From positions 19,287-83,286 of the forward strand of contig JAFYWG010000061.1 in the NCBI GenBank assembly GCA_017558115.1: DNA of 64,000 nucleotides, in the 5' to 3' direction. Positions 1 through 61,116 of the stretch are shown here, in pieces; the first letter of the stretch is position 1, and every line of letters starts with the position of its first letter. The DNA is from Alistipes sp. (GTDB taxonomy: Bacteria > Bacteroidota > Bacteroidia > Bacteroidales > Rikenellaceae). The notes beneath the pieces were generated by a model. That model was given only the letters and a program-made list of their open reading frames with translations. It searched no databases and was not told the origin of the DNA. A program made the position numbers and the translations under genes.

Positions 1-448
1 TGTTGACTTGGCATCTATCGTGCCCAACATGCCCGAGTATCAGGAGGCAGTTGCAAACCTCGAGACATATGGCAAGGATTTGCAGGACCAGCTCGAGCAG
101 ATTATGGTTGAGTTCAACACCTTGTATGCTAACTACGAGAAGAGTGCAGCTACTATGACCGACTCAGTACGTCAGCTCAAGGAGCGTGAGCTCGCAGAGC
201 TCCAGCAGCGCTACCAGGACTTCTCACAGATTGCACAGCAGGACATCCAGCGCAAGGAGACAGAGCTTATGACACCTATCTACGATAAGGCTAACGAGGC
301 TGTTAAGAAGGTTGCATCGGAGGGTGGCTACACTGCTATCTTCAGCACAGCGGGCGATCAGCCCTCTTCTGCAGGTTTAGCATACTTCGACCCCGCTACA
401 CTCACAGATATCACTGCTGAGGTCAAAAAAGCCCTCAACATCGAGTAA
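1..448 (+). CDS. OmpH/Skp-family periplasmic chaperone, 3' part
   Basis: This is the C-terminal part of an OmpH/Skp family protein, a periplasmic holdase for unfolded outer-membrane proteins. The frame is open to the left edge, so the signal peptide and true start lie outside the window. The first visible residues (VDLASIVPNMPEYQEA) match the start of the mature family domain, which usually follows a signal peptide and a GYVD-like strand. A long charged, Gln/Glu-rich helical stretch follows (visible residues about 15-95), the coiled-coil tentacle of Skp. The C-terminal strand region ends at ALNIE. In Bacteroidota such genes often sit in pairs behind bamA, but the neighbour on that side is not visible. 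A compound hairpin element begins at its stop codon. Confidence 0.85.
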   Translation, partial: VDLASIVPNMPEYQEAVANLETYGKDLQDQLEQIMVEFNTLYANYEKSAATMTDSVRQLKERELAELQQRYQDFSQIAQQDIQRKETELMTPIYDKANEAVKKVASEGGYTAIFSTAGDQPSSAGLAYFDPATLTDITAEVKKALNIE

Positions 449-558
449 ATTTCTTGTGAACAGGGGTCATTCTCGACCTCTCAATCAATAGCCAGAATGG
501 GATATACTTGACGTATGTCACATCCTGGCTATTTTCATATCGAGGCCAAGCCTAACCC
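446..558 (+). terminator. Compound 3' hairpin element, copy A
   Basis: The element starts at the stop codon of the OmpH gene with TAAATTTCTTGTGA, followed by GGGGTCATTCTCGACC. The inner hairpin has arms ATAGCCAG (488-495) and CTGGCTAT (525-532) with an AATGGGATATAC/GTATGTCACAT upper stem. The 3' flank CCAAGCCTAACCC can pair with the 5' GGGGT to form an outer stem. It is homologous in layout to four other copies (11612-11707, 20083-20198, 59171-59274, 60786-60897). The inner hairpin plus TATTTT probably acts as a terminator. The conserved flanks go beyond a simple terminator. Confidence 0.7.
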
Positions 559-710
559 ATTTTTACAACACTCTATCTCATGGCTCTTGGTCTGACTTAT
601 GTTGCGCTTTACAAAAATGCAACGCGCAAAGGATCGCATTCACTTAGCCTCTGTAAGGGTACCACCTCACAGCTCATCATATTCCTCCTTATAAGAGTAG
701 GCCCAAATAC

Positions 711-11560: not shown

Positions 11561-11611
11561 ACAAATTTTTCCTATGGTTAGTTATACTATACTTATATTT
11601 AATAACTAGAG

Positions 11612-11707
11612 CCAGACAAAAAAAGCCAGAATGCGATATACATCAAGTATATCCCATCCTGGCTATTGATTGAGAGGTCAAGAATGACCCCTTAACATAA
11701 GAAATTA
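11612..11707 (-). terminator. Compound 3' hairpin element, copy B
   Basis: Read on the minus strand, the element starts at the stop codon of the M13 peptidase gene: TAATTTCTTATGTTA, then GGGGTCATTCTTGACCTCTC. The inner hairpin has arms AGCCAG (11659-11664) and CTGGCT (11624-11629), followed by a T run. It is nearly identical to copy A (446-558), including ATGGGATATACTTGA. Unlike A, D and E it has no obvious 3' partner for the GGGGT flank. Confidence 0.7.
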
Positions 11708-13729
11708 CCAGATGATGACACGCTCCTCAACAGGCATAAACATAGCATCACCCTCCTTAACATCGAACGCATCGTACCATGTCTGAATGTTACGCAACGT
11801 AGCATTTACACGGTTGCGACCAAGCGAGTGTACGTCGTTCTTTGTGAGGTTCTCCATCTCCTTCTCAGTGATGTTCTGTGCCCAGAGTGTAGCATAGCCG
11901 ATGTAGAAGCGCTGCTCGCCAGTGAAGCCGTCGATGTCAGCGGGACGACCCTCAGCCCATGCATACTCAGTAAGACCTGTGAATGCGAGGCGGAGACCAC
12001 CCTGGTCAGCGATGTTCTCACCGAGTGAGAACTTACCATCAGCATAGAGGCCAGGAAGGATCTCGATAGCGTTGAACTGGTCAACGAGAACCTGAGTCTT
12101 CTTCTCGAATGCTGCGCGGTCCTCAGTAGTCCACCAATCCTTCATGTTACCATCCTTGTCGAACTGTGAGCCCTGGTCGTCGAAGCCGTGTGTCATCTCG
12201 TGTGCGATAACCACGCCGATAGCACCATAGTTTACAGCATCGTCAGCATTGGGGTTGTAGAAGGGAGGCTGGAGAATAGCTGCGGGGAAGCAGATCTCGT
12301 TTGTTGTAGGCATGTAGTATGCGTTAACAGTCTGGGGAGACATCAACCACTCATCGCGGTCTACGGGCTTACCTACCTTGCTCATAGCATCGATTGAGTA
12401 CCAGCGGTTTGCCTCAACAACATTTGCCCAGTAGCTCTTATTGGGATCTACCTTGAGTGATGAGTAGTTCTTCCACTTGTTGGGGTAGCCAATCTTCACG
12501 GTGAATGATGCGAGCTTCTCCTGTGCCTTAACCTTAGTCTCATCGCCCATCCAGTCGAGGTTGTCGATGTGCTTAGAGAATGCCTGCTGGATGTTTGCTA
12601 CCATCTCCTCAACGCGAGCCTTGTCGCTCTCGGGGAAGTACTTAGCAACGTACATCTGACCTACAGCCTCTGAGAGGATGTTGTTAGGCACGCTCATAGC
12701 GCGCTTCCAACGAGGACGAATCTCCTCTGTACCAGACATCTCCTTGCCGAAGAACTCGAACGATGCTACTGCGAAGTCCTCGCTCAAGTATGCAGTTGCA
12801 GCGTCGATGTAGTGTGCAGCAACATATGCGCGAAGCTCCTCAACAGATGCGCTCTTCAACACATCGAGTGTGTTAGCGAATGATGAAGGCTGGCTTACAA
12901 CGATCTTCTCGATCTTACGTACGCCCATAGCGAGGAAGTATGCATCCCAGTCAACACCCTTATACTGAGCCTTGAATGCCTCGAAAGTGTAGGGGTTGTA
13001 ACCCTTAACGATGTCGCGGCACTCTACGTTTGTCCAGTGCTTAGCAGCGAGGCGATCCTCAACAGCCATAACGTTGTTTACCAAAGTCTCTACGTCGCCC
13101 TCAACACCTGCAAGAGAGAAGATGCGTGCGAGGTATGTGCGGTAGCTTGCCTTGAGGTTTGCGTTCTCAGCCTCGGTGTAGTAATCGCGGTTACCCATGC
13201 CAAGACCACCCTGCTCCATGTAGAGGATTGTCATGTTGCTATCCTCGAGGTCTGCTGCGGGGTATGAGTAGAAGAAGGCGCCAATACCATCGATGTGGAG
13301 CTGTGCAATCTTGCCGATAAGCTCCTCGCGGTTGTTGATAGAGAGGATGTAGTTCAAAGTCTGACGAATAGGCTCTGCACCCTCAGCGTTGAGGCGCTCC
13401 TCGTCGAGACCCATCTTGTAGAGGTCCGAAATCTTCTGCTCTACGCTGCCGAACTCAGCCTCGGTCTGTGTCATCTCGTTGAAGAGGTCGTTGATACGGA
13501 TCTCGTTGTTCTCGCGCAATACGTCGAAAGAGCCGTAGCGTGAGTACTCAGGCTTAAGAGGGTTCTTAGCCTGCCAGCCACCAGTAGCCCACTGGTAGAA
13601 GTCGTCGTTGCGAACAATAGACTCATCGAAGTTTGTCTTGTCGACACCCTCGTACTTCTTCTCGTTCTGTGTTGTTGCACATGCTGTCATAAGAAGCGCT
13701 GATGCAAGGAATAAAGTTAATTTTTTCAT
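11705..13729 (-). CDS. M13-family zinc metalloendopeptidase, lipoprotein (PepO/neprilysin-like)
   Basis: The 674-residue protein is a neprilysin/PepO-type zinc peptidase. The N-terminal lipoprotein signal ends in LMTAC (Cys17), placing it in the envelope. The large alpha-helical Peptidase_M13_N domain (about residues 40-430) is followed by the catalytic domain. This has the zinc motif IAHEMTHGFDDQG (HExxH about 509-513), the third zinc ligand in GENIADQGGL, and the family's VNAYY substrate-binding motif. The C-terminus ends with the conserved tryptophan-containing tail (VIIW). Relatives cleave short peptides; the physiological substrate here is unknown. It is probably transcribed alone. A compound hairpin element starts at its stop codon. 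Confidence 0.92.
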   Translation of the reverse strand: MKKLTLFLASALLMTACATTQNEKKYEGVDKTNFDESIVRNDDFYQWATGGWQAKNPLKPEYSRYGSFDVLRENNEIRINDLFNEMTQTEAEFGSVEQKISDLYKMGLDEERLNAEGAEPIRQTLNYILSINNREELIGKIAQLHIDGIGAFFYSYPAADLEDSNMTILYMEQGGLGMGNRDYYTEAENANLKASYRTYLARIFSLAGVEGDVETLVNNVMAVEDRLAAKHWTNVECRDIVKGYNPYTFEAFKAQYKGVDWDAYFLAMGVRKIEKIVVSQPSSFANTLDVLKSASVEELRAYVAAHYIDAATAYLSEDFAVASFEFFGKEMSGTEEIRPRWKRAMSVPNNILSEAVGQMYVAKYFPESDKARVEEMVANIQQAFSKHIDNLDWMGDETKVKAQEKLASFTVKIGYPNKWKNYSSLKVDPNKSYWANVVEANRWYSIDAMSKVGKPVDRDEWLMSPQTVNAYYMPTTNEICFPAAILQPPFYNPNADDAVNYGAIGVVIAHEMTHGFDDQGSQFDKDGNMKDWWTTEDRAAFEKKTQVLVDQFNAIEILPGLYADGKFSLGENIADQGGLRLAFTGLTEYAWAEGRPADIDGFTGEQRFYIGYATLWAQNITEKEMENLTKNDVHSLGRNRVNATLRNIQTWYDAFDVKEGDAMFMPVEERVIIW

Positions 13730-17460: not shown

Positions 17461-20073
17461 ATGATTTCGGAGTATATAGTTATTTCAGTTGCATGCATTG
17501 CTTTAGTTATAATAGCCATATTAGTAATGGCTTTATGGCGCAACTACGCTCGCAGAAAAGCCTCAAAACTCATTAACGAGATTATACAAATTGCACACTA
17601 TTGTAAGCTGAGTAATGCTGCATCTTCTGTGTCGGAATCAGAATTCAATTTCAATATTAAATCTGAAATAGATACAAATTTCACGAATGCAGTAATCTCA
17701 CTATCGGATATTCAACATTTCAAAAATCATTATCTACCGACCTATAGTAAGGCTTTGAATTGTCGTTCTTTACATGAACATTTAAGGTTAAGGCTTCCAG
17801 ATGTCATAGGTGTATTTATCAGCGAATGTGCGACAATTGATAAATATATTAAAGAGCATAATGACATATGTATCAATGCTATTTTATATACGCATAAACA
17901 TTTTTTTGACACTTGTCTTAAATATCCGTTGGATAGACAGCAAAGAAGGTCTATTGTGTCGGAAGAGGATAACTGCTTAGTTGTAAGTAGTGCAGGTAGT
18001 GGTAAGACATCATCTATTATTGGCAAGGTAAAATATCTTACTAACATAAAGGGTATTCGTCCCGAAAGAATACTCCTTATTAGCTATACAAATAAGGCTG
18101 CTGCGGAACTTACAGAACGACTTGATACGCCTGGATTGCGAGGATATACATTCCACAAATTAGCTCTTGATATTATCGGTAAAGCTACGGGAGTAAAACC
18201 ATCTATATGTGACAATACCGACTCAGTTTTCATCGAATCTTTTAGAAGTCTCACAAATACAACAGCCTATAAAAACAGTGTAATTAAGTATTTTGCTGAT
18301 TATCAAAAAATAGAATCGGTTAGCGAGGTATGCGAGAGCGAGCGTCGTGAGCAATTATCGGAGCTCAAAAAGAAAGAGATTAAGGCGATGCTACCAGATA
18401 TGGATGGTCGAACTATCTATGTGCGTAGCGAACAAGAGGCACAAATATGTTTCGCTTTATCTAAATTAGGAATTAAATTTAGATATGAAGAGCCATACGA
18501 ATTCGACTTAGCCGATGAAAAGCACTCGCAATACCATCCCGATTTTTCAATTTACTATCCCCACTTTGGTGAGACGAAGCGTATTTATTTAGAGCACTTT
18601 GGCATAAATGAACAGGGCTTAGTTCCTGCGTGGTTTGCAAAGGATAAGAACATATCATACGAAGAGGCAAATAAGTTGTACAACGATGGTATAACATGGA
18701 AGGTTGAGGCTCATAAAAAGCATGGTACAACCCTCATAACGACAACCAGTGCAGATTTTCAGTCGTTTAATATTACGGACAAGCTTAAGGAGCTTCTTCA
18801 CGGTGCTGGAGTACCTATTATAGAAGTTCCTGATGAAGAGTTGTACGAGTTGGTTCTGCCAAAGGGAAGTAAGCGCGAGAAGGCTTTAATACGTCTTATA
18901 GCTACCTTTGTAACGCTCTTAAAAACAAGTTGCAAATCTGTAGACGAGGTTTTGCGTATGATAGAGGCCAATGGGGACAAGCGCAGTGGGTTTATTGTAA
19001 AAGATCTTTTCTTGCCTATTTATACCGTATACGAACAGGTGCTTAAACGGCGAGGACAGATAGATTTTACCGATGCGATAATTCAGGCTACAAATTTGTG
19101 CAATACTATGAGTATTGCCGAATACGATTATATTATAGTTGATGAGTTCCAAGATATATCAGTAGATAGATATAATTTCTTGAAAGCACTACGCAAGGGA
19201 ACAACCTTAGCAAAACTTTACTGTGTGGGTGATGATTGGCAGTCTATATACCGCTTTTCAGGTAGCGATATGTCTCTTTTCAATCAATTTGCAGACTATT
19301 TTGGACTAACTGAAATTAATAAGATTGAGACTACATATAGATTTGGAGAGCCTTTGGTATCTCTATCTGCAAACTTTATACAACGCAATACCGCTCAAAT
19401 TACAAAGCAGATACGACCTTTTGACATAAATGCCAAGACAGAATTAGCATTTTGTGGGTATGATAAGAGTTCGTATTGCAGTCGGTTAGAGCAAATCGTA
19501 TCCTATATTCCAAAGGATAAAAGTGTGTTTTTGTTGGGACGATACTCTTTTGATGACATATATCTATCAGGATATTACAAGTGTGTAAAGGAGAATGATA
19601 AATTCTACTATGTCATTGGGGAGAGAAAAATAGAGTTTCTTACAGCACATAAATCAAAGGGGTTGGAGGCTGATTATGTGATATTGCTACAATGTAATAG
19701 GGATACTTATGGATTTCCCTCTCTTGTAAGCGATGACCCTGTGCTGAATTATGTTCTTACCCAAAGTGACCGCTTCCCATTTAGTGAGGAACGAAGATTG
19801 TTTTATGTTGCAATTACACGAGCAAAGGAAAAAACAATCGTTATGTATGATTGCAAGTCTCCCTCTGTGTTTGTAAACGAATTCTTGCATCCTGAGAGAG
19901 TTGATAAAAATAGTTATGAGAAGCACCCTAATTCGCAAAAGCGATGGACTCGTAGCGAGGATGCTTTCTTATTAACTTTGCATAGGGAGGGCAAATCGAT
20001 CAAGGAGATTTCATTGAAGATGGGCAGAAGTCAAACAGCCATAATAATGAGATTAGGAAAACTTAATAGTTAA
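17461..20073 (+). CDS. Membrane-anchored UvrD/helicase-IV-like protein with nuclease-like insert
   Basis: I take the ATG at 17461 (870 residues); the frame extends upstream only through a TTG. Domains in order: one membrane helix (about 5-26); Walker A SSAGSGKTSS (about 176-185); an insert with SEQEAQICFAL, YHPDFSIYYP and IYLEHFGI, resembling the PD-(D/E)XK-like domain in many helicase-IV-type proteins; Walker B IIVDEFQDIS; motif III/IV GDDWQSIYRFSGSDMSLF, diagnostic of the HelD/helicase IV branch; motif V/VI HKSKGLEADYV and RRLFYVAITRAKEKT. A C-terminal Myb/SANT-like tail follows (RWTRSEDAFLLTLHREGKS, about 826-870). The gene is visibly more AT-rich than its neighbours and stands between two terminators, which suggests acquisition. 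The function may be repair or defence; unknown. Confidence 0.85.
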   Translation: MISEYIVISVACIALVIIAILVMALWRNYARRKASKLINEIIQIAHYCKLSNAASSVSESEFNFNIKSEIDTNFTNAVISLSDIQHFKNHYLPTYSKALNCRSLHEHLRLRLPDVIGVFISECATIDKYIKEHNDICINAILYTHKHFFDTCLKYPLDRQQRRSIVSEEDNCLVVSSAGSGKTSSIIGKVKYLTNIKGIRPERILLISYTNKAAAELTERLDTPGLRGYTFHKLALDIIGKATGVKPSICDNTDSVFIESFRSLTNTTAYKNSVIKYFADYQKIESVSEVCESERREQLSELKKKEIKAMLPDMDGRTIYVRSEQEAQICFALSKLGIKFRYEEPYEFDLADEKHSQYHPDFSIYYPHFGETKRIYLEHFGINEQGLVPAWFAKDKNISYEEANKLYNDGITWKVEAHKKHGTTLITTTSADFQSFNITDKLKELLHGAGVPIIEVPDEELYELVLPKGSKREKALIRLIATFVTLLKTSCKSVDEVLRMIEANGDKRSGFIVKDLFLPIYTVYEQVLKRRGQIDFTDAIIQATNLCNTMSIAEYDYIIVDEFQDISVDRYNFLKALRKGTTLAKLYCVGDDWQSIYRFSGSDMSLFNQFADYFGLTEINKIETTYRFGEPLVSLSANFIQRNTAQITKQIRPFDINAKTELAFCGYDKSSYCSRLEQIVSYIPKDKSVFLLGRYSFDDIYLSGYYKCVKENDKFYYVIGERKIEFLTAHKSKGLEADYVILLQCNRDTYGFPSLVSDDPVLNYVLTQSDRFPFSEERRLFYVAITRAKEKTIVMYDCKSPSVFVNEFLHPERVDKNSYEKHPNSQKRWTRSEDAFLLTLHREGKSIKEISLKMGRSQTAIIMRLGKLNS

Positions 20074-20082
20074 ATATAAAAT

Positions 20083-20198
20083 GGTTTAGATGCGGCCTGT
20101 CACAAAAGAAGACCCCTCGGGATAGTACAAAGAAGTACAGCCCGAGGGGTCTTACTTTTGGAGATGGGGCGCAGATGACCCCTTATCACGCTAAATTA
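20083..20198 (-). terminator. Compound 3' hairpin element, copy C
   Basis: On the minus strand it begins at the GH5 stop codon with TAATTTAGCGTGATA and GGGGTCATCTGCGCC. The inner stem is a perfect 13 bp, AAGACCCCTCGGG/CCCGAGGGGTCTT (20141-20153 with 20109-20121), topped by GTAC/GTAC. CAAAAG/CTTTTG extends it below. The 3' flank GGCCGCATCTAAACC weakly complements the 5' flank. The upper part CTGTAC...GTACTATCCC is shared with copy E despite a different stem sequence. It also faces the end of the helicase gene and could terminate it too. Confidence 0.7.
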
Positions 20199-21527
20199 CA
20201 AGTTGCCGAGTTTCTGGTTGGTCTCGCGGATGATGCTCATTGTTGACTCATCCTCCACGAAGATAGAGTTAAGACCCTGCTGCTCCTGTGCTGGGTCACC
20301 CGTGTAGTCGTCACCCTTTGCCCAGTACTCGTGGTCCTCGACATTTGTCTCGGCGAAGCCACCCCAACTCCAGAAGTTGCAACCAGCAAATACGCCACCC
20401 TCCTGTCGTGCCTTGACGATGAGGTCGAAGACAAACGTGTAGTACATATCGCGACATGTTACGGGGCTACCCTTGTGGAAGTCCATATTATCGCGTGGCA
20501 TGCCAAACTCCTCAACCACAACGGGTTTGCCAATCTTATTTCCGAGCTCGAGGTGCATGTTGATATACTCCTCGGTATTCTCGCACGACTGCTTCAAATC
20601 CTCGCGCATGGCGTCACCGCGCATCCACTTCCAGTTGTATGGCCACACGTGGCAGTTGATGTACGACACCTCGTCGATGGCGTGAATACGCTCGCAGAGG
20701 TCCATATCCCACTCACAGCCGTAGAAGCCCTCCGAGCCTGTCGAGATCATATGGTTGGGGTCGAGTGAGCGGATGAGCTTCGCGCTGGCCTCAATCCACT
20801 GGGCGAAGGCCTCCTTGTTGTCCACGTCACGGCTGCTAAATGCGCGTGGCTCGTTCGAGATCTGCCATGAGAAGATTGCGGGGTCGTCGATATACTTAAG
20901 GCCTGTGTAGCGGTTGGTGCGCGAGACGATGAAGCGCACGTGGTCGTAGAAGAGGTTCTTCGCGCGCTCATTACGCACGAACTCGCCCGCGAAAGTATTA
21001 TATGAGAACCAGCCATCTACGCGGGGCACGAGCACGGGCTCGTTGTTTGCCCATGCAACATACTGTGTGTAGCCACCGCTCCACTCCCATGCGTTGTTGA
21101 AGTAGAGCACTGCGGTCATATCGCGCTTGCCGAGCTCCATCATAAGGAAGTCGAGACCTGCCAATACGTCGTCGTTATATACACCGGGCTGAGGCTGGAG
21201 GTTGGGCTCAATCTTGCCCAAGAGGCCATTCTCTCCCTCGCCACCTACCAAGATGCGGAGGTTGTCGATACCGTTAGCCTTCATAAAGTCGAGCTCGCGG
21301 CAGAGGCGCTCGCGGTTGCCACCCTCACCCTCCGAGCCGAGGATTGCACCATACCAGAAGTTTGTACCTACAAAGTAGTAGGGCTCGCCATTGCGGATGA
21401 ACTGACCATCCTTGACGCTAATAAATTTGCTTGCCTCGGGCTCGGCGTTACCCTTTGGGGCGCAGCCTACAGCCATCATCACAGCCGCAAAAATCGCGGC
21501 GAGGCATACCTGTTGAAATCTCTTCAT
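20196..21527 (-). CDS. GH5 mannanase-like glycosidase, lipoprotein
   Basis: The protein has 443 residues with a lipoprotein signal (AVGC, Cys22). It has a single (beta/alpha)8 glycosidase domain most like GH5 endo-beta-1,4-mannosidases (subfamily 7 type): GTNFWYGA at the start, acid/base Glu226 in WQISNEPRAF, CHVWPYNWKWM, nucleophile Glu340 in VVVEEFGMPRD, and NFWSWGGF near the end. The retaining mechanism is known for the family. The exact substrate (mannan, glucomannan or a host glycan) is inferred. No susCD pair or other polysaccharide-utilisation genes flank it. It diverges from murG. Confidence 0.85.
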   Translation of the reverse strand: MKRFQQVCLAAIFAAVMMAVGCAPKGNAEPEASKFISVKDGQFIRNGEPYYFVGTNFWYGAILGSEGEGGNRERLCRELDFMKANGIDNLRILVGGEGENGLLGKIEPNLQPQPGVYNDDVLAGLDFLMMELGKRDMTAVLYFNNAWEWSGGYTQYVAWANNEPVLVPRVDGWFSYNTFAGEFVRNERAKNLFYDHVRFIVSRTNRYTGLKYIDDPAIFSWQISNEPRAFSSRDVDNKEAFAQWIEASAKLIRSLDPNHMISTGSEGFYGCEWDMDLCERIHAIDEVSYINCHVWPYNWKWMRGDAMREDLKQSCENTEEYINMHLELGNKIGKPVVVEEFGMPRDNMDFHKGSPVTCRDMYYTFVFDLIVKARQEGGVFAGCNFWSWGGFAETNVEDHEYWAKGDDYTGDPAQEQQGLNSIFVEDESTMSIIRETNQKLGNL

Positions 21528-38766: not shown

Positions 38767-38855
38767 CATAACAAAAATAACTCAACGTGGCTATCGAGCT
38801 ATACTCTATAATATTGACACGACTACGTTTACACAACGACAAAACACAAACTAAT

Positions 38856-41800: not shown

Positions 41801-42269
41801 ACTTAAGAACTTGACAAGTGCAACAATCAGCAGCAACGATAACATGGCAGAACTTAACTTGAAGGATTGCCCAGCACTAACAACGCTCAAATGTTATAAC
41901 AATAAGATGCTTACCGAGCTTAACCTCAAGTTCTGTCCTGCTATCACAGGACTTACCTGCTACGGCAATAGCAAACTCTCTGTGTTAGACGTCAGCGACT
42001 GCGTAGTGCTCGAAACCCTTGACTGCTACTCTATGCCTATTGAGAAGCTCGATTTGAGCAACAACCCATTGTTGACAACGCTCAAATGTTATTCGACACT
42101 GATTGAGAGACTTGACGTGAGCTGCTGCCCATTGATAACAAGTCTCGACTGTAGTCCTAATGACAATCTTACAACGCTATATATGGCCGAGGGTCAGACA
42201 ATCGGTTGGATTAACAACAATAGAAATAATAGTTACATCCCCGAGACTACGGAGATTGTGTACAAATAG
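38856..42269 (+). CDS. Surface lipoprotein with collagen-like, BACON-like and leucine-rich repeats
   Basis: I use the ATG at 38856 (1137 residues), which gives a lipoprotein signal (LWSC, Cys19); the longer frame adds 23 unlike residues. A short coiled coil (about 26-62) is followed by a Gly-x-Asp collagen-like tract (97-118) and a second (155-199, 15 triplets), with DGIYYWTLDGEWLT-type modules between. A third short tract lies at 229-236. A BACON-like beta domain follows (about 370-465). From about 500 to the end are degenerate leucine-rich repeats of the LxxLNxSxNxxxxxLD type. Such proteins are exported to the cell surface and probably bind ligands. It follows the DUF262 pair by 89 nt; a functional link is unproven. 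Confidence 0.85.
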   Translation: MRRLLTLTLLVSFMGLWSCAYDDTNIWERVNDHENRISKLEQLCKEMNNNISAMQTILEAVQNNDYITSVTPIEVDGETIGYTITFTKSAPITIYHGKDGADGKDGADGKDGADGKDGYTPIVGVRQDVDGIYYWTLDGEWLTDEQGNKIKAVGIDGADGADGADGEDGKDGADGANGEDGKNGEDGANGNDGNDGNDGITPLLKIENDYWYISYDDGSTWHELGKAKGEDGKDGKNYCEFFEDITEDEEEVVFTLVDGTVIRVLKDKPFSLELETDRFEYSTGMTYHIGFTITGATLDTVIEVIPSNNLRAYVSNYRIYDGVATGDIVVEMPKAILEYATVAVIVSDGRSKVIMKAIHFDYDGSEDIESGILYVTNGEAFNFPKEGGELQIDIQTNISYRVEIDPNIQEWLSIADTRSTLREESLTLYATENTGIYRHGFIYIVDVSNNHIVETIYISQNSDEVYYEEVILFHETFNSYMVSNFDINKDGVVTRLEALEAVNITVPSTVADLSGLEYCVNLKHLNISNNSKVTSLDTSTFALLESLNISRSSIATIDLSRNPLLKSFNCSGSKVSAVDLSANNKLETIDCSSLGSLANNTLILENHRSLTTLNCSNSKFTMLNISGCPELYELNCSTNSITELDITKSPKLEVLTMNNNAIYELDLSKSVELRKFNCSYNQLRSLDLQACMKLHEYNFDRNPLQILNLGSVPRLKSVKVQTYNSTDYDFAISGLEIESFEVSNIGDDYFKNIIFDTPNIKSVYVSSYSGTDIDFSSIPSVETIKLDAKNVYNIDITKNSNLKSFEFYGSSNPNIKKIDFSYNSELTSVKLTHCGITGLDLSNNLKVTDVKLLAKNCKYINLGYNPVLKELDPLLDGSGMYNPSNEHDDLIVIAPLLESLTLTECGGYVDVTACPNLTYLKISPDAHTTTMQALDLSNQTKLQSLVLEYQPNMPELQLWHLANLESVTITGCRGLSNLDLSGLKNLTSATISSNDNMAELNLKDCPALTTLKCYNNKMLTELNLKFCPAITGLTCYGNSKLSVLDVSDCVVLETLDCYSMPIEKLDLSNNPLLTTLKCYSTLIERLDVSCCPLITSLDCSPNDNLTTLYMAEGQTIGWINNNRNNSYIPETTEIVYK

Positions 42270-56716: not shown

Positions 56717-56986
56717 TAGTGTGAAAATAACCATAAAATAATAGTGAGGTTGTCTCTCTTTGGGCGATATGGTTTTTTGTGGCGATACACCTCATTGTGT
56801 CACATTTGCCCAGCTGCCACTCTTTGGCTATCCACGCTCCAGTAGCGAAAAATAACCTATTTCTTAAAAAACATTGCTTTTTATTTTGCGGTTTGAAAAA
56901 AAGTCTTTAATTTTATAATCCGTAAAGGCACTTAACACACATTTAAGGGTGAAAAAATCACCAAGATGAGGGGTGTGAGGGCCTGT

Positions 56987-57013
56987 AAAAAACCTAAAAA
57001 ACCTAAAAAACCT
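56987..57013 (+). repeat. Three perfect 9-nt repeats in the EF-G paralogue leader
   Basis: AAAAAACCT occurs three times in tandem (56987-56995, 56996-57004, 57005-57013), ending 6 nt before the start codon. Such tandem units can change number by slippage. In the upstream frame they would read Lys-Lys-Pro, but the family domain starts after them. The rest of the gap from 56717 holds no recognised gene. Confidence 0.75.
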
Positions 57014-57019
57014 AATACT

Positions 57020-59173
57020 ATGAAAAACTATTCAGCAAAAGAGATTAAGAACATCGTTCTTATTGGTGCGCCTGGCGCCGGTAAAACTACCCTTGCAGAG
57101 GCAATGGCTTTCGAGGGTAAGGTGATTGACCGCAGGGGTAGCATCGAGAATAACAACACTATCTCGGATAATACAGATATCGAGCACGAGTACAAGCGCT
57201 CGATCTATTCTACAACCCTCTTCACAGAGTTCATGGACCGCAAGCTCAACATCATCGACTGCCCCGGTTCAGACGACTTCTGTGGTTCGCTCTTCTCAGC
57301 GTTTAAGGTTGGTGACGTGGGCGTTATGGTTCTCAATGCACAGAATGGTTGGGAGGTAGGCTCAGAGCTTCAGTCACGCTACGCACGCATCCTCAACAAA
57401 CCTCTTATCGGCGTTGTTAACCAGCTCGATGGCGATAAGGCTAACTACGAGGCTACACTCGAGGGTATCCGCGCAAACTCATCTGTTAAGCCCGTTATCG
57501 TACAGTATCCCGTAAACCAGGGCTCAGGCTTCGACTCATTCATCGACGTATTGATGATGAAGCTCTACAAGTTCGTAGACGAGAATGGTAAGCGTGAGGA
57601 GCACCCCATCCCCGAGAGCGAGTTGGAGCGCGCACAGACTTTGAACCAGGAGCTTGCAGAGGCTGCTGCAGTTTATGATGACGCACTCATGGAGCTCTAT
57701 TTCGAGAAGGGTTCACTCACTCAGGACGATATCCGTGCAGGTTTGAAGCTCGGCGTATCTAAGCGCGACATCATGCCTATCTTCTGTGCTTCAGGTAAGC
57801 GCGACATCGGTACTAAGCGTCTCATGGAGTTCATCATCAACGTAGGTCCTGGCCCATTGAAGGCTCCCGCATTCCTCTCAACTGAGGGTGAGGAGATCTT
57901 GGCTAACGACAGCGAGCCCGCAGTAGTATTCGTATTCAAGAGCCAGATTGAGCAGCATATCGGTGAGATCACATACTTCCGCGTAGTACGTGGTAAGGTG
58001 ACTGAGGGTATGGAGCTTGTTAACTCTCGCACAGGCAACAAGGAGAAGCTCTCACAGCTCTTCGCAGTTGCTGGTAAGAATCGTATCAAGGTGTCTGAGC
58101 TCTCAGCAGGTGACATCGGCTGCACCGTGAAGCTTAAGGGCACACGCACAAACGACACATTGGCAGCTCCCGCCGCTCCCGTGGCTGTTGAGCCTATCGT
58201 ATTCCCTGAGCCTCGCTACCGCGCAGCAGTTAAGGCTAAGGAGCAGAACGACGAGGAGAAGCTCGGTAAGCTTTTGAACGACGCTAAGTTCGAGGATCCT
58301 ACAATCCTTGTAGAGTACTCTAAGGAGCTTAAGCAGACTATCATCCAGGGTCAGGGTGAGCACCACTTGAACATCCTCAAGCAGCGCCTTGCAGCTGAGA
58401 ACAAGATGGAGATCGAGTACTTCGCACCTAAGATCCCATATCGTGAGACTATCACTAAGGTGGCTCAGGCAGACTACCGCCACAAGAAGCAGTCTGGTGG
58501 TTCTGGTCAGTTTGGTGAGGTACACATGGTCATCGAGCCATACTTCGATGGTATGCCCGAGCCTACTAAGTATAAGGTAAATGGTCAGGAGATCGCTGTG
58601 AGCCTCAAGGGTAAGGAGGAGTACGACCTTCCATGGGGTGGTAAGCTCCAGTTCTACAACTCTGTTGTGGGTGGTGCTATCGACACACGCTTCATGCCTG
58701 CTATCTTGAAGGGTATCATGGAGAAGATGGATGAGGGTCCATTGACAGGTTCTTACGCACGCGACATCCGCGTAGTTGTTTACTATGGTAAGATGCACCC
58801 AGTAGATTCAAACGAGCTCTCATTTAAGCTTGCTGGCCGTAACGCATTCAAGGATGCCTTCCGCAACGCAGGTCCTAAGATTATGGAGCCTATCTACAAC
58901 GTTGAGGTCCTCACACCAAGCGAGTATATGGGTGCCGTAATGAGCGACCTTCAGAACCGCCGTGCTATGATCATGGGTATGGAGTCAGATAAGGGCTTCG
59001 ACCGTCTCAACGCACGTGTGCCTCTTGCAGAGCTCTACCGCTACTCAACATCATTGTCATCACTCACTTCAGGTGCTGCTACATACACCATGCAGTTTGC
59101 ATCATACGAGCAGGTTCCTGCCGACGTACAGGATAAGCTCTTGAAGGCATACACTGACACCGACGAAGAGTAA
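57020..59173 (+). CDS. Elongation factor G paralogue (EF-G2 type) with degenerate GTPase motifs
   Basis: I start at the ATG at 57020 (717 residues, MKNYSAKEIKNIVLIG). All EF-G domains are present: G domain, domain II (about 300-385), domain III, the IV segment with GGSGQFGEVHMVIEP, and a V domain ending YEQVPADVQDKL. The P loop is GAPGAGKT (16-23). Switch I lacks the RGITI motif and reads EYKRSIYSTT. G3 is DCPGSDDF, so the catalytic His is Ser84, and G4 is NQLD instead of NKxD. In Bacteroides thetaiotaomicron a related EF-G2 is reported to support translation without GTP hydrolysis and to matter in the gut; I infer a similar role. A compound hairpin element starts at its stop codon. Confidence 0.9.
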   Translation: MKNYSAKEIKNIVLIGAPGAGKTTLAEAMAFEGKVIDRRGSIENNNTISDNTDIEHEYKRSIYSTTLFTEFMDRKLNIIDCPGSDDFCGSLFSAFKVGDVGVMVLNAQNGWEVGSELQSRYARILNKPLIGVVNQLDGDKANYEATLEGIRANSSVKPVIVQYPVNQGSGFDSFIDVLMMKLYKFVDENGKREEHPIPESELERAQTLNQELAEAAAVYDDALMELYFEKGSLTQDDIRAGLKLGVSKRDIMPIFCASGKRDIGTKRLMEFIINVGPGPLKAPAFLSTEGEEILANDSEPAVVFVFKSQIEQHIGEITYFRVVRGKVTEGMELVNSRTGNKEKLSQLFAVAGKNRIKVSELSAGDIGCTVKLKGTRTNDTLAAPAAPVAVEPIVFPEPRYRAAVKAKEQNDEEKLGKLLNDAKFEDPTILVEYSKELKQTIIQGQGEHHLNILKQRLAAENKMEIEYFAPKIPYRETITKVAQADYRHKKQSGGSGQFGEVHMVIEPYFDGMPEPTKYKVNGQEIAVSLKGKEEYDLPWGGKLQFYNSVVGGAIDTRFMPAILKGIMEKMDEGPLTGSYARDIRVVVYYGKMHPVDSNELSFKLAGRNAFKDAFRNAGPKIMEPIYNVEVLTPSEYMGAVMSDLQNRRAMIMGMESDKGFDRLNARVPLAELYRYSTSLSSLTSGAATYTMQFASYEQVPADVQDKLLKAYTDTDEE

Positions 59174-59274
59174 TTTCTTGTGATAGTGGCGCATCTGCGG
59201 CGCTTCAATCAAAGCCCCGAATGGGACGTACGTCAAGTACTACCCATCCGGGGCTTTTTCATGTTAGCGCCACA
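59171..59274 (+). terminator. Compound 3' hairpin element, copy D
   Basis: It begins TAATTTCTTGTGATAG at the EF-G2 stop. A perfect outer stem GTGGCGC/GCGCCAC (59186-59192 with 59267-59273) encloses an inner stem AAAGCCCCG/CGGGGCTTT (59211-59219 with 59249-59257). Its tip is GTACGTCAAGTAC, and the inner stem ends in a T run. The inner loop text AATGGGA..TAC..GTCA matches copy A, while the stem bases differ and still pair. Confidence 0.8.
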
Positions 59275-59328
59275 GCTGCACCACTCTGACACGAAATTAG
59301 GTTGAGGAGCTAATGTACGTTGTGCTTA

Positions 59329-59440
59329 GAGGGTTTAATGAGTTTAGTGTCTCTGCATAGCCAGTGCGCACACTAAATTCCCTAAATTCATTAAACTCCC
59401 TTTGTAACCCTTAAAAACCCTTTACAACCTTTTCACAACC
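59329..59440. repeat. 9-nt-periodic inverted repeat between EF-G2 and kbl
   Basis: A left arm GAGGGTTTAATGAGTTTAG (59329-59347) complements CACTAAA..ATTAAACTCCC (59371-59400) if one 9-nt unit is looped out. The right side continues as 9-mers rich in CCCTTTAAA to about 59440. No protein is encoded. The rest of the gap to 59600 holds the kbl promoter. Confidence 0.6.
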
Positions 59441-59523
59441 CCCTCCTCGCCCCCTCCTCTCTTTTTCCTCTCTTATGTCGAAAAAAAGTCGGGCTTTTAT
59501 GACCAATCTTAAGAATTGTTTTG

Positions 59524-59531
59524 TATCTTTG
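59524..59531 (+). promoter_or_regulatory. -7 promoter box for kbl
   Basis: TATCTTTG, 69 nt before the kbl ATG; the -33 element is unclear. Confidence 0.5.
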
Positions 59532-59600
59532 TAGTTGATTGTGGCTATATGCTAAAATTTCGAGTAATCTTATTAACACAATAACTAAAACTTTACGACC

Positions 59601-60788
59601 ATGTACGGAAAATTTCAGCAGCATTTGCAGAATGAGTTGGCAGAGATTAAGGCTGCCGGTTTGTACAAGACTGAGCGTATCATCGAGTCTCCACAGCGTG
59701 CCGAGATCGATGTAGCTAACCGCCCTGTTTTGAACTTCTGCGCTAACAACTACCTCGGCCTCTCTGACAACCAGCGTCTTATCGATGCTGCAAAGAAGGC
59801 TATGGACGAGCGTGGCTTCGGTATGTCTTCAGTACGCTTCATCTGCGGCTGCCAGGATATGCACAAGGAGCTCGAGAAGGCTATTGCTGACTACTTCGGC
59901 ACTGAGGATACAATCCTCTACGCTGCTTGCTTCGACGCTAACGGCGGTGTATTCGAGCCTTTGTTCACAGCTGAGGATGCTATCATCTCTGACGCCCTCA
60001 ACCACGCATCTATCATCGACGGTGTGCGCCTCTGCAAGGCACAGCGCTACCGCTATGCTAACGCCGACATGGCAGAGCTCGAGGAGTGCCTCAAGCAGGC
60101 GCAGGCTCAGCGCTTCCGCATCATCGTGACTGACGGTGTATTCTCTATGGACGGTAACGCTGCTCCCCTCGACAAGATTTGCGAGCTCGCAGAGAAGTAC
60201 GACGCCCTCGTGATGGTTGACGAGTGTCACTCTGCAGGTGTACTCGGTAAGACTGGTCGCGGTATCACTGAGCTCTACGACCTCCGTGGTAAGGTAGATA
60301 TCCTCACAGGTACTCTCGGTAAGGCATTTGGTGGTGCTGTAGGTGGCTTCACAACAGGCCGCAAGGAGATCATCGACATGCTCCGTCAGCGTTCACGTCC
60401 TTACCTCTTCTCTAACTCACTCCCACCCGCAGTAGTAGGTGCATCTATCGAGATGTTCAAGATGCTTGAGGAGAGCGATCAGCTTCACGATCAGCTCGTT
60501 GCAAACGTTGAGCACTTCCGCACTAAGATGGTTGCTGCAGGCTTCGATATCAAGCCTACACAGTCTGCTATCTGCGCAGTTATGCTCTACGATGCTAAGC
60601 TCTCACAGGACTTCGCAGCAGAGCTCCAGCAGGAGGGTGTATTCGTAACAGGTTTCTACTACCCCGTAGTTCCAAAGGGTCAGGCACGTATCCGTGTTCA
60701 GGTGTCAGCAGGTCACACTGTTGAGCAGCTCGACCGTTGCGTTGAGGCCTTTGTTAAGGTAGGTAAGAAGCTTGGCGTCTTGAAGTAA
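59601..60788 (+). CDS. kbl: Glycine C-acetyltransferase / 2-amino-3-ketobutyrate CoA ligase
   Basis: The 395-residue PLP enzyme of the alpha-oxoamine synthase family cleaves 2-amino-3-ketobutyrate with CoA to glycine and acetyl-CoA. Motifs: NNYLGLSDNQRLI, SVRFICGCQDMHKELEKAI, LNHASIIDGVRL, FSMDGNAAPL, VDECHSAGVLGKTGRG, and the PLP-binding Lys in TGTLGKAFGGAVGGF. The full-length match favours Kbl over the serine palmitoyltransferase branch. Threonine dehydrogenase (tdh), its usual partner, is not adjacent here. A compound hairpin element starts at its stop codon. Confidence 0.94.
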   Translation: MYGKFQQHLQNELAEIKAAGLYKTERIIESPQRAEIDVANRPVLNFCANNYLGLSDNQRLIDAAKKAMDERGFGMSSVRFICGCQDMHKELEKAIADYFGTEDTILYAACFDANGGVFEPLFTAEDAIISDALNHASIIDGVRLCKAQRYRYANADMAELEECLKQAQAQRFRIIVTDGVFSMDGNAAPLDKICELAEKYDALVMVDECHSAGVLGKTGRGITELYDLRGKVDILTGTLGKAFGGAVGGFTTGRKEIIDMLRQRSRPYLFSNSLPPAVVGASIEMFKMLEESDQLHDQLVANVEHFRTKMVAAGFDIKPTQSAICAVMLYDAKLSQDFAAELQQEGVFVTGFYYPVVPKGQARIRVQVSAGHTVEQLDRCVEAFVKVGKKLGVLK

Positions 60789-60897
60789 TTTTTCGAGGGG
60801 TCATTCTCGGCCCATCACTAAAGTAAACCGCCCAGGGCTGTACATCATAGTACTATCCCTGGGCGATTTCTTTTGCGATAAACCAAGCCTAACCCCT
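60786..60897 (+). terminator. Compound 3' hairpin element, copy E
   Basis: It starts at the kbl stop codon with TAATTTTTCG and AGGGGTCATTCTCGGCC. The outer stem is AGGGGT/ACCCCT (60796-60801 with 60892-60897). The inner stem is CGCCCAGGG/CCCTGGGCG (60829-60837 with 60857-60865) topped by CTGTAC...TAGTACTAT, the same tip as copy C. The 3' flank AACCAAGCCTAACCCC matches copy A. Confidence 0.8.
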
Positions 60898-60924
60898 TCT
60901 GACGAAAAATTCGGTGGCTGGTGA

Positions 60925-61049
60925 TTAGGGAAAATAAGGAGTTTAAGGAATTTAAGGAGTTTAAGGAATTTAGGGAATATAGCGAGAGTGTTGGCAGAAT
61001 ATATTGCTTCCTCCCTATATTCCTTAATCTCCCTAATCTCCTTAAATTC
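60925..61049. repeat. 9-nt-periodic AAGGAATTT array with complementary second arm
   Basis: Left arm 60925-60980 is a run of 9-mers alternating AAGGAGTTT and AAGGAATTT. Right arm 61011-61049 contains ATATTCCTT, AATCTCCCT and AATCTCCTT, also 9-nt periodic and complementary. Together they could form a long imperfect hairpin. A short frame across it (KEF repeats) is not credible as a gene. It lies between kbl and the queD promoter. Confidence 0.7.
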
Positions 61050-61084
61050 TATGACCTCACTTTCCTCATAAATTTCCCCTCTCT

Positions 61085-61116
61085 TTTGCTCTATTCAAAA
61101 ATATATACTATTTTTG
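61085..61116 (+). promoter_or_regulatory. Promoter of queD-polA
   Basis: TTTG (61085-61088), a 20-nt spacer and TATTTTTG (61109-61116), about 45 nt before the queD start. Confidence 0.7.

Follow-up and report, generated by a model that had tools for sequence, protein, structure and literature searches.

The five hairpins found in the analysed window, a 64-kb stretch of a 1.88-Mb Alistipes-type MAG, are copies of a dispersed repeat located in more than half of its places exactly at the stop codon of a gene, and its outer arms mirror the adjoining stop codon; these features suggest an undescribed kind of mobile hairpin. The intact element is an imperfect hairpin of ~127 bp (roughly 130 bp) comprising, in order, a 9-bp outer stem that starts inside the stop codon (a length demonstrated on 257 copies), a bubble of 5 mispaired nt, two inner stems, and a terminator-like hairpin tipped by GTAC.

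Element copies in the window

The positions and orientations of the five copies reported in the first-pass annotation, all of them at stop codons, were confirmed. The stop-codon register was exact in four of them, and the copy at 446 was shifted by 1 base. The covariance model R1, a class A model whose training set included the copies at 59169 and 444, matched only the same five places in the 64-kb window at E <=0.01; the remaining rows were opposite-strand matches of these places. The copies, with losses judged by eye, two host genes, and the parts of the element are listed below.

59171..59300, plus strand: complete element at the EF-G stop codon (R1 match 59169-59301, 150.8 bits; folding)
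60786..60914, plus strand: element, inner variant B, adjoining the Kbl-type gene at its stop codon; bubble without its 5' side (R1 match 60784-60914, 38.1 bits, a class A model scored on a variant B copy)
446..570, plus strand: element at the OmpH stop codon, outer 3' arm decayed (R1 match 445-577, 94.4 bits; folding)
11585..11709, minus strand: element remnant (the 11612 copy) at the M13 peptidase stop codon, inner hairpin retained, 3' half lost (R1 match over the same interval, 40.2 bits)
20065..20200, minus strand: variant B element (the 20083 copy), adjoining ORF 20196-21527 at its stop codon; the outer 3' arm has disappeared and the next stem is weakened (R1 match over the same interval, 37.3 bits)
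56966..59173, plus strand: host gene, EF-G, 735 aa (Pfam)
59601..60788, plus strand: host gene, class I/II aminotransferase, first annotated as Kbl, 395 aa (Pfam)
59172..59180, plus strand: 5' outer arm AATTTCTTG, starting at nucleotide 2 of the TAA stop
59181..59185, plus strand: 5' side of the bubble, TGATA, conserved as mispaired
59211..59257, plus strand: inner hairpin, GTAC-tipped and terminator-like, arms 59211-59231 and 59237-59257
59255..59259, plus strand: TTTTT run after the inner hairpin, coding strand
59285..59289, plus strand: 3' side of the bubble, TCTGA
59290..59298, plus strand: 3' outer arm CACGAAATT, pairing with 59172-59180 except at one mismatch
60787..60795, plus strand: 5' outer arm AATTTTTCG of the 60786 copy, with its mirror CGAAAAATT at 60903-60911

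By eye, all stems were retained only in the 59171 and 60786 copies. Their outer arms reach 59298 and 60911, respectively, so the copy lengths originally assigned were too short, and the layout described as an inner hairpin with a distal arm is one continuous imperfect hairpin. The host names OmpH, peptidase M13, EF-G, and aminotransferase (the former Kbl) agreed with Pfam; the gene called GH5 had no Pfam match at 1e-5. No Rfam family matched the 64-kb window at the gathering score. The 13 sub-threshold matches within 59000-61100 all fell in 60865-61074, the best being of a plant-miRNA type in a low-complexity tract. A description of the repeat was not found in the available portions of open-access papers, including the human-microbiome RNA paper (PMC8040213, supplements aside).

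Conserved fold and mirrored outer arms

Of the 36 nonredundant class A copies, alignment A5 contained 32. The other four were removed on visual inspection because they looked chimeric or decayed: L226, the second copy of L128, and two copies of L199, for one of which the removal was not well founded. Changes on both sides were found in 33 of 50 pairs (0 of 500 shuffles), and 95.0% of the cells were paired, compared with 40.8-46.3% when slid. Pair cells included 1383 Watson-Crick, 133 template-strand G·U, 24 A-C, and 56 other combinations. After removal of two columns with a wobble as the rule, the strand bias was 79 versus 24 cells, and G·U was favoured in only 13 columns versus 10. Tandem G·A/A·G pairs occurred in 31/32 and 32/32 copies at one site and in 25/32 and 24/32 at another. 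The proposed structural conservation, with varying stem sequences and retained pairing, was thus borne out by covariation. It extends to the outer stem, where its absence had been named as counter-evidence.

The template strand was predicted to fold more stably in 235 of 257 copies as RNA and in 243 of 257 as DNA. For the two complete window copies, its calculated energies were -77.5 and -72.5 kcal/mol, the latter belonging to the 60786 copy, with -47.1 kcal/mol on the coding strand. The coding strand of the three singly folded window copies had z-scores of -11.2 (59171), -5.9 (60786), and -5.4 (446), and none of 200 shuffles was as stable in each case. As the template strand is where the G·U wobbles and the tandem G·A pairs are found, the alignment and folding models show this strand, not that of the mRNA, as the predicted carrier of the conserved fold. 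The same features speak against the initial view of the compound fold as part of the mRNA 3' end, and an mRNA ending at the T-run of the inner hairpin would exclude the 3' arms. Strong covariation alone does not prove a coding-strand RNA.

Most copies in alignments A2 and A3 had been chosen for outer-arm pairing (<=1 mismatch in 8); the outer arms were therefore evaluated on 257 copies selected by their interior and a recognisable bubble, of which 231 were used for the close-pair, mirroring, beyond-9-nt, and divergence analyses. Changes in one outer arm go along with changes in the other, and the arms mirror the stop codon next to them. The paired fraction was 0.72-0.93 at positions 1-9, exceeding every shuffle except at position 6, and fell within the shuffle range at position 10. 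A TAA stop was mirrored by T in 119/119 cases and a TAG stop by C in 6/8. Where the T-run length was not three (46 cases), it was mirrored in 24 (shuffled mean 2.19, maximum 7). Beyond 9 nt, mirroring showed no excess over shuffles, and the longer mirroring seen by eye in L122 was not counted. The L099 and L110 copies have interiors 99.1% identical and different arms, each 9/9 paired. Among the 46 close pairs with at least two differences in the 5' arm, 37 also differed at two or more positions of the 3' arm. The rule of well-paired arms was broken in some close pairs, namely in L143 (4/9 paired) and in one copy each of L128, L158 (4), and L162 (2). Paired changes were above the independent-change expectation in the core (49 both-sided and paired, 126 one-sided) and in the arms (141 and 58). 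In 13 close pairs, the 3' arms differed with the same 5' arms, and 30 of 257 copies had five or fewer of nine arm positions paired. At interior identity >=98% (31 pairs), a fraction of only 0.13 differed at two or more arm positions, indicating that the arms are mostly carried along with their interiors. To the right of the 3' arm, a conserved tail noted by eye (GCTAAT) was reduced to a weak GGGT in 150 copies, and this low conservation gives no sign of a shared promoter there.

Dispersal, placement, and probable terminator role

The absence of further copies in the genome, which would have spoken against a repeat family, was not observed. The 111 covariance-model match rows in the genome correspond, with strands merged, to at least 75 distinct places, obtained by combining two model searches (one place, on contig C5, came from the R1 search only) and excluding a partial match on C25, a contig-end duplicate on C65, and several partial blastn matches. 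In the family, where matches were called with stricter filters, 107 of 268 genomes were positive. The element is dispersed, and near-identical copies occur at different loci, with identity of up to 99.2% over 130 bp. The best 46 pairs listed include one that does not match in the element. In 20 pairs, the match extends 8-12 nt beyond the bubble on each side; in 7, it ends within 2 nt of the bubble at both ends; and in 19, it ends elsewhere, some matches running further on one side by up to 84 nt. Most foreign copies were retrieved through an exact match to the tip motif, as best-scoring matches, or at the kbl locus, a selection biased towards young copies.

The search for empty sites covered 300 loci and gave 559 flank-pair rows, 77 of them at >=88%, an aligned subset of which was inspected. 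Since the genomes represent one per species, no clean pair of empty and filled sites was found among the aligned pairs, which differed in their arrays, had different subtypes (at EF-G), or were divergent. Replacement or array change rather than simple insertion was the pattern in the best syntenic pairs (92-94% flanks). No constant direct target duplication was visible by eye in the flanks inspected, there being no clean empty site for comparison.

The 5' end of the element coincides with the upstream gene's stop codon far more often than expected by chance, and in a single orientation. Its TAA or TAG exactly terminates a long open frame (open for at least 80 codons) in 41 of the 75 places and lies within 8 nt of such a stop in a further 10. 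The corresponding numbers were 0 and 1 of 75 for the other end of the element on the opposite strand and 5 and 52 of 1500 for random points. The other 24 places lie more than 8 nt from such a stop, and 9 of these are downstream members of tandem pairs. The next downstream gene was convergent in 38 and on the same strand in 29 of the 67 scored places.

From the least to the most isolated copies, the outer arms lose pairing (from 8.31 to 5.41 of 9), and the coding-strand inner hairpin persists at a steady -24.6 to -26.0 kcal/mol. The longest T-run beside it averaged 4.21 on the coding strand versus 3.54 on the other strand (251 copies) and reached at least four on the coding strand in 165 of 251. 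At the kbl locus, the element was present in 20 of 30 relatives, and a plain terminator was predicted in 7 of the 10 relatives without it, compared with 2 of the 20 (weak) carrying it; the copy number at this site among close relatives was 0, 1, 2, or 5. The GC hairpin and T-run at the gene end are a feature of intrinsic terminators, and elements behind genes thus seem, judging from their sequence, to act as transcription terminators. The first-pass annotation had seen in them more than a plain terminator, which is upheld by the shared sequence, mismatches, and enclosing stems behind unrelated genes. Among its options, a mobile repeat supplying terminators is judged the right reading; at kbl, the element occupies the place of the plain terminator of relatives.

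Comparison with known systems and possible origin

Like an intrinsic terminator, the element has, on the coding strand, an inner GC hairpin with a T-run behind it. It differs in the sequence and mismatches that copies at unrelated genes have in common, and in its two additional surrounding stems and its outer arms, whose conservation is on the opposite strand. MITEs are non-autonomous, have terminal inverted repeats, and occur in tens of copies. The element shares terminal inverted repeats and dispersed near-identical copies with them; unlike MITEs, it pairs from end to end, and its terminal arms may differ between near-identical copies. The attC sites are located at the 3' ends of cassettes. 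In the part of PMC2727003 available, they are described as folding on the bottom strand with conserved structure and variable sequence, having a paired outer box, a mispaired central spacer, a paired inner box, and a variable tip. The position at the gene 3' end and the template-strand fold with a mispaired central spacer, as predicted and indicated by covariation, resemble this description. However, a 5' arm containing AAC (R'') combined with a 3' arm containing GTT (R'), the boxes as defined in that account, was present in 0/257 copies (43/257 in reverse order), the element stands behind core genes singly or in short tandems rather than in cassette arrays, and no integron integrase (TIGR02249) scored over the cut-off in 180 genus genomes, 179 of which had sub-threshold tyrosine recombinase matches.

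According to the sections of PMC3733652 available, REP/BIME sequences are short dispersed imperfect palindromes near gene 3' ends with strand-specific hairpins, REPs are 20-40 bp long, their subfamilies have alternative complementary stem residues and G-T pairing, and GTAG REPs often provide a TAG stop codon. As far as these sections allow, the element is alike in being a dispersed imperfect palindrome at gene 3' ends with a strand-specific fold and changing complementary stems, but it is about three to six times longer. Moreover, GTAG/CGTC on either strand near the outer arm edge was found in only 6 (5') and 2 (3') of 257 copies, and the element is placed exactly at the stop codon with arms mirroring the adjoining sequence. 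The RAYT-type Y1 transposase (PF01797) was detected in 2 of the 180 genus genomes (G003 and G004), both without element matches, and not in the genome studied. Among the other candidates, reverse transcriptase (PF00078) exceeded the cut-off in 60/180 genomes and IS110 (PF01548) in 9/180, two of which (G013 and G170) had element matches; both were absent from the studied genome. Neither a mobilising gene tracking the element nor a parent element was found among these four enzyme families. For viral carriage, the tip pattern gave no viral stretches, and the 30 stretches with the 3'-end 16-mer had no model match at E <=1. Template switching at inverted repeats, as stated in the accessible part of PMC8794818, can yield compensatory changes in both stem arms in one event; this is a mutational process, not an element, and alone it would tend to erase the fixed mismatches.

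The element is rather likely to be a non-autonomous mobile DNA repeat, a ~127-bp hairpin spreading within and among Alistipes-type genomes and reused as a terminator. The fixed orientation and position relative to the gene, the longer coding-strand T-run, the inner hairpin kept in isolated copies, and the replacement of the terminator at kbl would also suit a vertically inherited, host-encoded structured element of the mRNA 3'-UTR (terminator and stabiliser), in which selection on the coding-strand RNA yields compensatory changes. Such an origin appears unlikely, however, as the wobbles and G·A pairs point to the opposite strand, near-identical copies stand at separate loci, the kbl element is absent from 10 of 30 close relatives, and outer-arm pairing is lost with divergence. 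G·U and tandem G·A pairs are typical of RNA, and their occurrence on the template strand, together with the low energies of the two complete window copies, could point to a real antisense RNA, either a small RNA or the 3' UTR of a convergent gene. This is considered quite improbable given the low conservation to the right of the 3' arm apart from a weak GGGT, with no sign of a shared promoter, a convergent downstream gene in only 38 of 67 scored places, and the lack of Rfam families at the gathering score in the window. A decidedly low probability is assigned to resident hairpins that no longer move, are homogenised by ectopic gene conversion, and have their arms kept matched by template-switch repair. 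The different subtypes at the syntenic EF-G site in the window and L252, the excess of paired changes, and the capacity of template switching for compensatory changes agree with it, but copies with close relatives have the best-paired arms, pairing drops with divergence, and both presence and copy number vary at the kbl site among close relatives.

For the mobile repeat, an enzyme would act on a single template strand folded as a hairpin. On copying, the 3' arm would at least sometimes be copied from the 9 nt beginning in the host stop codon, possibly by snap-back copying or template switching, which would create a matching outer stem. Once inserted, the copy would provide the gene with an intrinsic terminator, namely its inner hairpin and T-run on the coding strand, which selection would keep, and arms needed solely for mobility would decay. 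A further-reaching proposal is tentative and rather doubtful: a class of mobile elements that recognise stop codons of active core genes, travel with the template strand folded, whether as DNA or as RNA, and on landing add to their distal end an inverted copy of nine bases of the host, the stop codon among them. One half of the outer stem would then come from the host and the other would be its copy, and the enzyme would be of a type not so far connected with dispersed palindromes.

With at least 75 copies in this genome and matches in 107 genomes of the family, cultured relatives would allow the mechanism to be tested. If the interpretation is true, the mirrored arms would be evidence for a single-event origin of compensatory stems. 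Exact landing on stop codons would hint at a link between translation termination and DNA mobility, which to our knowledge is not established for any described palindromic repeat, and dozens of terminators in a genome of this gut lineage would be domesticated mobile hairpins.

Anatomy of the element and its occurrence in the genome and family

The five window copies were confirmed by direct reading to lie at gene stop codons, as claimed in the first-pass annotation, with the host gene on the same strand each time; the copy at 446 (OmpH gene) is offset from the stop codon by one base. The copy at 59171 (EF-G gene) is present; the 104 bp first assigned to it was too short, as it covers about 128 bp with the 3' outer arm at 59290-59298. 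The copy at 60786 (Kbl-type gene) is also longer than first stated and extends to 60911. The remaining three copies (446, 11612, and 20083) are decayed to different degrees, and the 3' half of the 11612 copy (M13 peptidase gene) is gone. The flanks and tip of the compound fold had been described correctly, and the "distal arm" belongs to a single uninterrupted hairpin of about 127 bp, of which it forms the 3' half.

Parts of the element, from the outside inwards
Outer arms: outermost, 9 bp, commonly AATTTnnnG / CnnnAAATT
Bubble: conserved mispaired stretch inside the outer arms, TGATA / TCTGA
Stem with changing sequence: inside the bubble, AGGGGT, AGTGGC, and AAGCCGC types
Tandem mismatch: inside the sequence-changing stem
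Second stem: inside the tandem mismatch
3x3 mismatch: inside the second stem
A/T-rich spacer: between the 3x3 mismatch and the inner hairpin
Inner hairpin: innermost, with a wobble, ATGGG, a two-base mismatch, and a GTAC or ATAC tip
Inner variant B: second inner type, GGGCTGTAC...GTACTATCC

In 32 divergent copies of inner variant A, the type covered by the covariation test, 95.0% of the cells of a 50-pair structure were paired versus 40.8-46.3% in slid controls, a comparison biased in favor of the structure because it was hand-drawn from these and earlier rows. Both sides had changed in 33 of the 50 pairs, and none of 500 shuffles matched any of five structure measures.

Further genome copies, for which a search was proposed at first pass, were recovered by a covariance model (R1, built on inner variant A), which gave 111 match rows on both strands of the window's own genome (1.88 Mb, 68 contigs, 85% complete). 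The blastn search of this genome gave 20 matches with one copy as the query and 45 with another. Merging the R1 rows with a second search yielded at least 75 distinct places, which is a lower bound. Contigs C26 and C65 of this genome overlap at their starts, apparently in one single element copy; the element repeats thus break the assembly, and contig-end copies may be miscounted. In a family-wide scan with stricter filters and at most 12 candidates scored per genome, matches were found in 107 of 268 genomes, including 101 of the same genus (the window's own among them) and six from two other genera. A pattern scan of named genomes gave at least 80 matches, and the titles among those listed were Alistipes sp., Rikenellaceae bacterium, and Bacteroidales bacterium. 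Locus L252 (genome G093) shares identical flanks, over the part compared, with L134 (Alistipes sp. RGIG7737), which ties one same-genus genome to such a title. Loci L132 and L193 (Rikenellaceae/Alistipes MAGs) carry a divergent relative whose outer arms are TTTCCGATTTTA / TAAAATCGGAAA; it occurs in several tandem copies at L132 and suggests further subfamilies barely within the reach of R1. No Rfam matches at the gathering score were detected in the window.

Other repeats were also observed in the window. Shortly after the EF-G element comes a second inverted repeat of the TTTAGGGAATTTAGGGAG type (59328-59401), with 20-nt arms that are 85% complementary and a gap of 34 nt, and similar low-complexity tracts follow several other copies whose flanks were inspected. 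The tandem arrays TAAGGAGTTTAAGGAATT (60935-60978) and CTCCCTAATCTCCTTAAT (61011-61045), located between kbl and the 6-pyruvoyl tetrahydropterin synthase gene and overlain by sub-threshold miRNA-family matches, look as if they were halves of one long inverted repeat. Runs of a 9/18-nt GATGGTGCA-type repeat (39144-39453) lie within a long ORF (38787-42269).

Placement at stop codons and dispersal

In the window's own genome, the TAA or TAG of the element ends a frame that stays open for 80 codons or more in 41 of the 75 places. Such a stop lies within 8 nt in 10 more places, at 13-50 nt in 4, and at 101-149 nt in 9, where the element is always the downstream copy of two in tandem; no such frame lies within 150 nt of the other 11 places. 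In controls, the other element end on the opposite strand gave 0/75 exact positions and 1/75 within 8 nt, and random points in the same loci gave 5/1500 and 52/1500, respectively. Many hosts are core genes rather than cassette-like ones, including DnaK, SecA, trigger factor, and YidC (core hosts were named by eye from their C-termini, window hosts by Pfam). Scored at 67 places, the next downstream gene shared the strand at 29 and was on the opposite strand at 38. The targeting of stop codons may reflect a link to translation termination or strong selection on the spacer.

Copies at different loci are up to 99.2% identical over 130 bp. Among the best 46 pairs, the match reaches 8-12 nt beyond the bubble at both ends in 20, stops within 2 nt of it on both sides in 7, which have differing arms, and ends elsewhere in 19, some further on one side (of these 19, one does not involve the element, and in a few the two copies are neighbors on one contig). 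At the same site, presence, copy number, and subtype vary across relatives. Inspected junctions showed that tandem copies abut with AATT shared or adjoining, and no clean empty site was found. At L235, located at a kbl 3' end, four tandem units of the 5' arm, AATTTCTTGTG, precede one element, a pattern that looks like slippage or repeated arm copying.

Folding of the template strand

At kbl, the terminator is replaced by the element. Among the 30 closest Kbl loci, the element directly follows the stop in 20 (one element in 10 loci, two in 9, and five in 1, partial elements included) and is absent in 10; in a simple scan, 7 of the 10 element-free loci had a predicted plain terminator, as did 2 of the 20 element-bearing ones, where the prediction was weak both times. 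Next to the inner hairpin, the mean length of the longest T-run is 4.21 on the coding strand, that of the upstream host gene, versus 3.54 on the template strand (251 copies). With increasing isolation of the copies, the coding-strand inner hairpin holds steady (-24.6 to -26.0 kcal/mol), the template-strand inner hairpin weakens from -29.8 to -26.6 kcal/mol, and the remaining core does so from -29.9 to -22.4 kcal/mol.

The template-strand bias of the fold is not what one would expect from selection on an mRNA hairpin. The cells of 25 own-genome copies comprised 1058 Watson-Crick, 6 coding-strand G·T, 113 A-C, and 87 other pairs; since coding-strand A-C corresponds to template-strand G·T, the A-C excess points to the template strand. 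In 32 copies aligned as the template strand, taken from several genomes and overlapping little with the 25, the counts were 1383 Watson-Crick, 133 G·U, 24 A-C, and 56 other. With two wobble-rule columns removed, G·U still numbered 79 versus 24 A-C, 13 columns favoring G·U and 10 A-C, so that about a dozen columns account for the strand bias. Read on the template strand, the fixed mismatches are tandem G·A/A·G, G·A, and G·G; on the coding strand they are mostly clashes between pyrimidines. The template strand had the better predicted fold in 235 of 257 copies when treated as RNA (mean -66.7 vs. -54.0) and in 243 of 257 as DNA; for the 60786 copy, the values were -72.5 (template) and -47.1 (coding).

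Concerted, mirrored arms and the origin of the element

The arms were analyzed in 257 copies selected on the interior and bubble only. Pairing at arm positions 1-9 was 0.72-0.93 and exceeded all 200 shuffles except at position 6 (at position 4, 0.864 vs. a shuffled mean of 0.344); position 10 fell within the shuffles, and no excess was found past position 9. The arms pair at 8 or 9 of 9 positions in 196 copies and at five or fewer in 30. Where interiors are at least 94% identical, arms can differ yet still pair, as in L099 and L110 (interiors 99.1% identical; AATTTGTCG/CGACAAATT vs. CTTTTAGCG/CGCTAAAAG); poorly paired counter-examples are L143 and one copy each in L128, L158, and L162. Of 182 close pairs, 46 have at least two 5'-arm differences and 37 of these at least two in the 3' arm as well, while by the same measure the 3' arm alone differs in 13. 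Arms are partly linked to interiors: pairs average about 2 differences in the 5' arm, a figure that drops to 0.81 once the interiors reach 98% identity. For 5' T-runs of a length other than three, the 3' A-run has the same length in 24 of 46 copies (shuffled mean 2.19, maximum 7) and a length of three in 14. The TAA or TAG before the T-run, assigned by position rather than by reading frame in each copy, is mirrored by T for TAA (119/119) and by C for TAG (6/8). Because the copies share ancestry, none of these arm counts represents independent events. Arm pairing averages 8.33 of 9 in copies with close relatives (n = 58) versus 5.86 in isolated copies (n = 21); the arms therefore seem to be made matched and to decay later, not to improve over time.

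The mobile substrate would be the folded template strand, and the 3' arm may at least sometimes be copied from the 5' side of the host, at or soon after insertion, presumably by some enzyme. Snap-back copying or template switching would fit the arm pattern; PMC8794818 includes an account of reverse-complement copying by template switching that creates or repairs stems. A likeness exists to REP and attC, for which passages of PMC3733652 and PMC2727003 give one strand of an imperfect palindrome as the relevant form. Membership in either was rejected. Of 180 genus genomes, 2 encode the REP-associated Y1 transposase and neither has element matches, and nearly all element ends lack the GTAG/CGTC tag. 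The integron integrase was over the cut-off in none of the 180 genomes, and AAC/GTT boxes in attC order were found in 0 of 257 copies. As candidate partners, reverse transcriptase (60 of 180 genomes; none in the window's own, at 85% assembly completeness) and IS110 (9 of 180) do not track the element.

No description of the element was found in the open-access literature searched. The family is a real set of dispersed hairpin repeats of a known broad kind, and it is unusual in combining exact stop-codon placement, template-strand folding, and host-mirrored arms.
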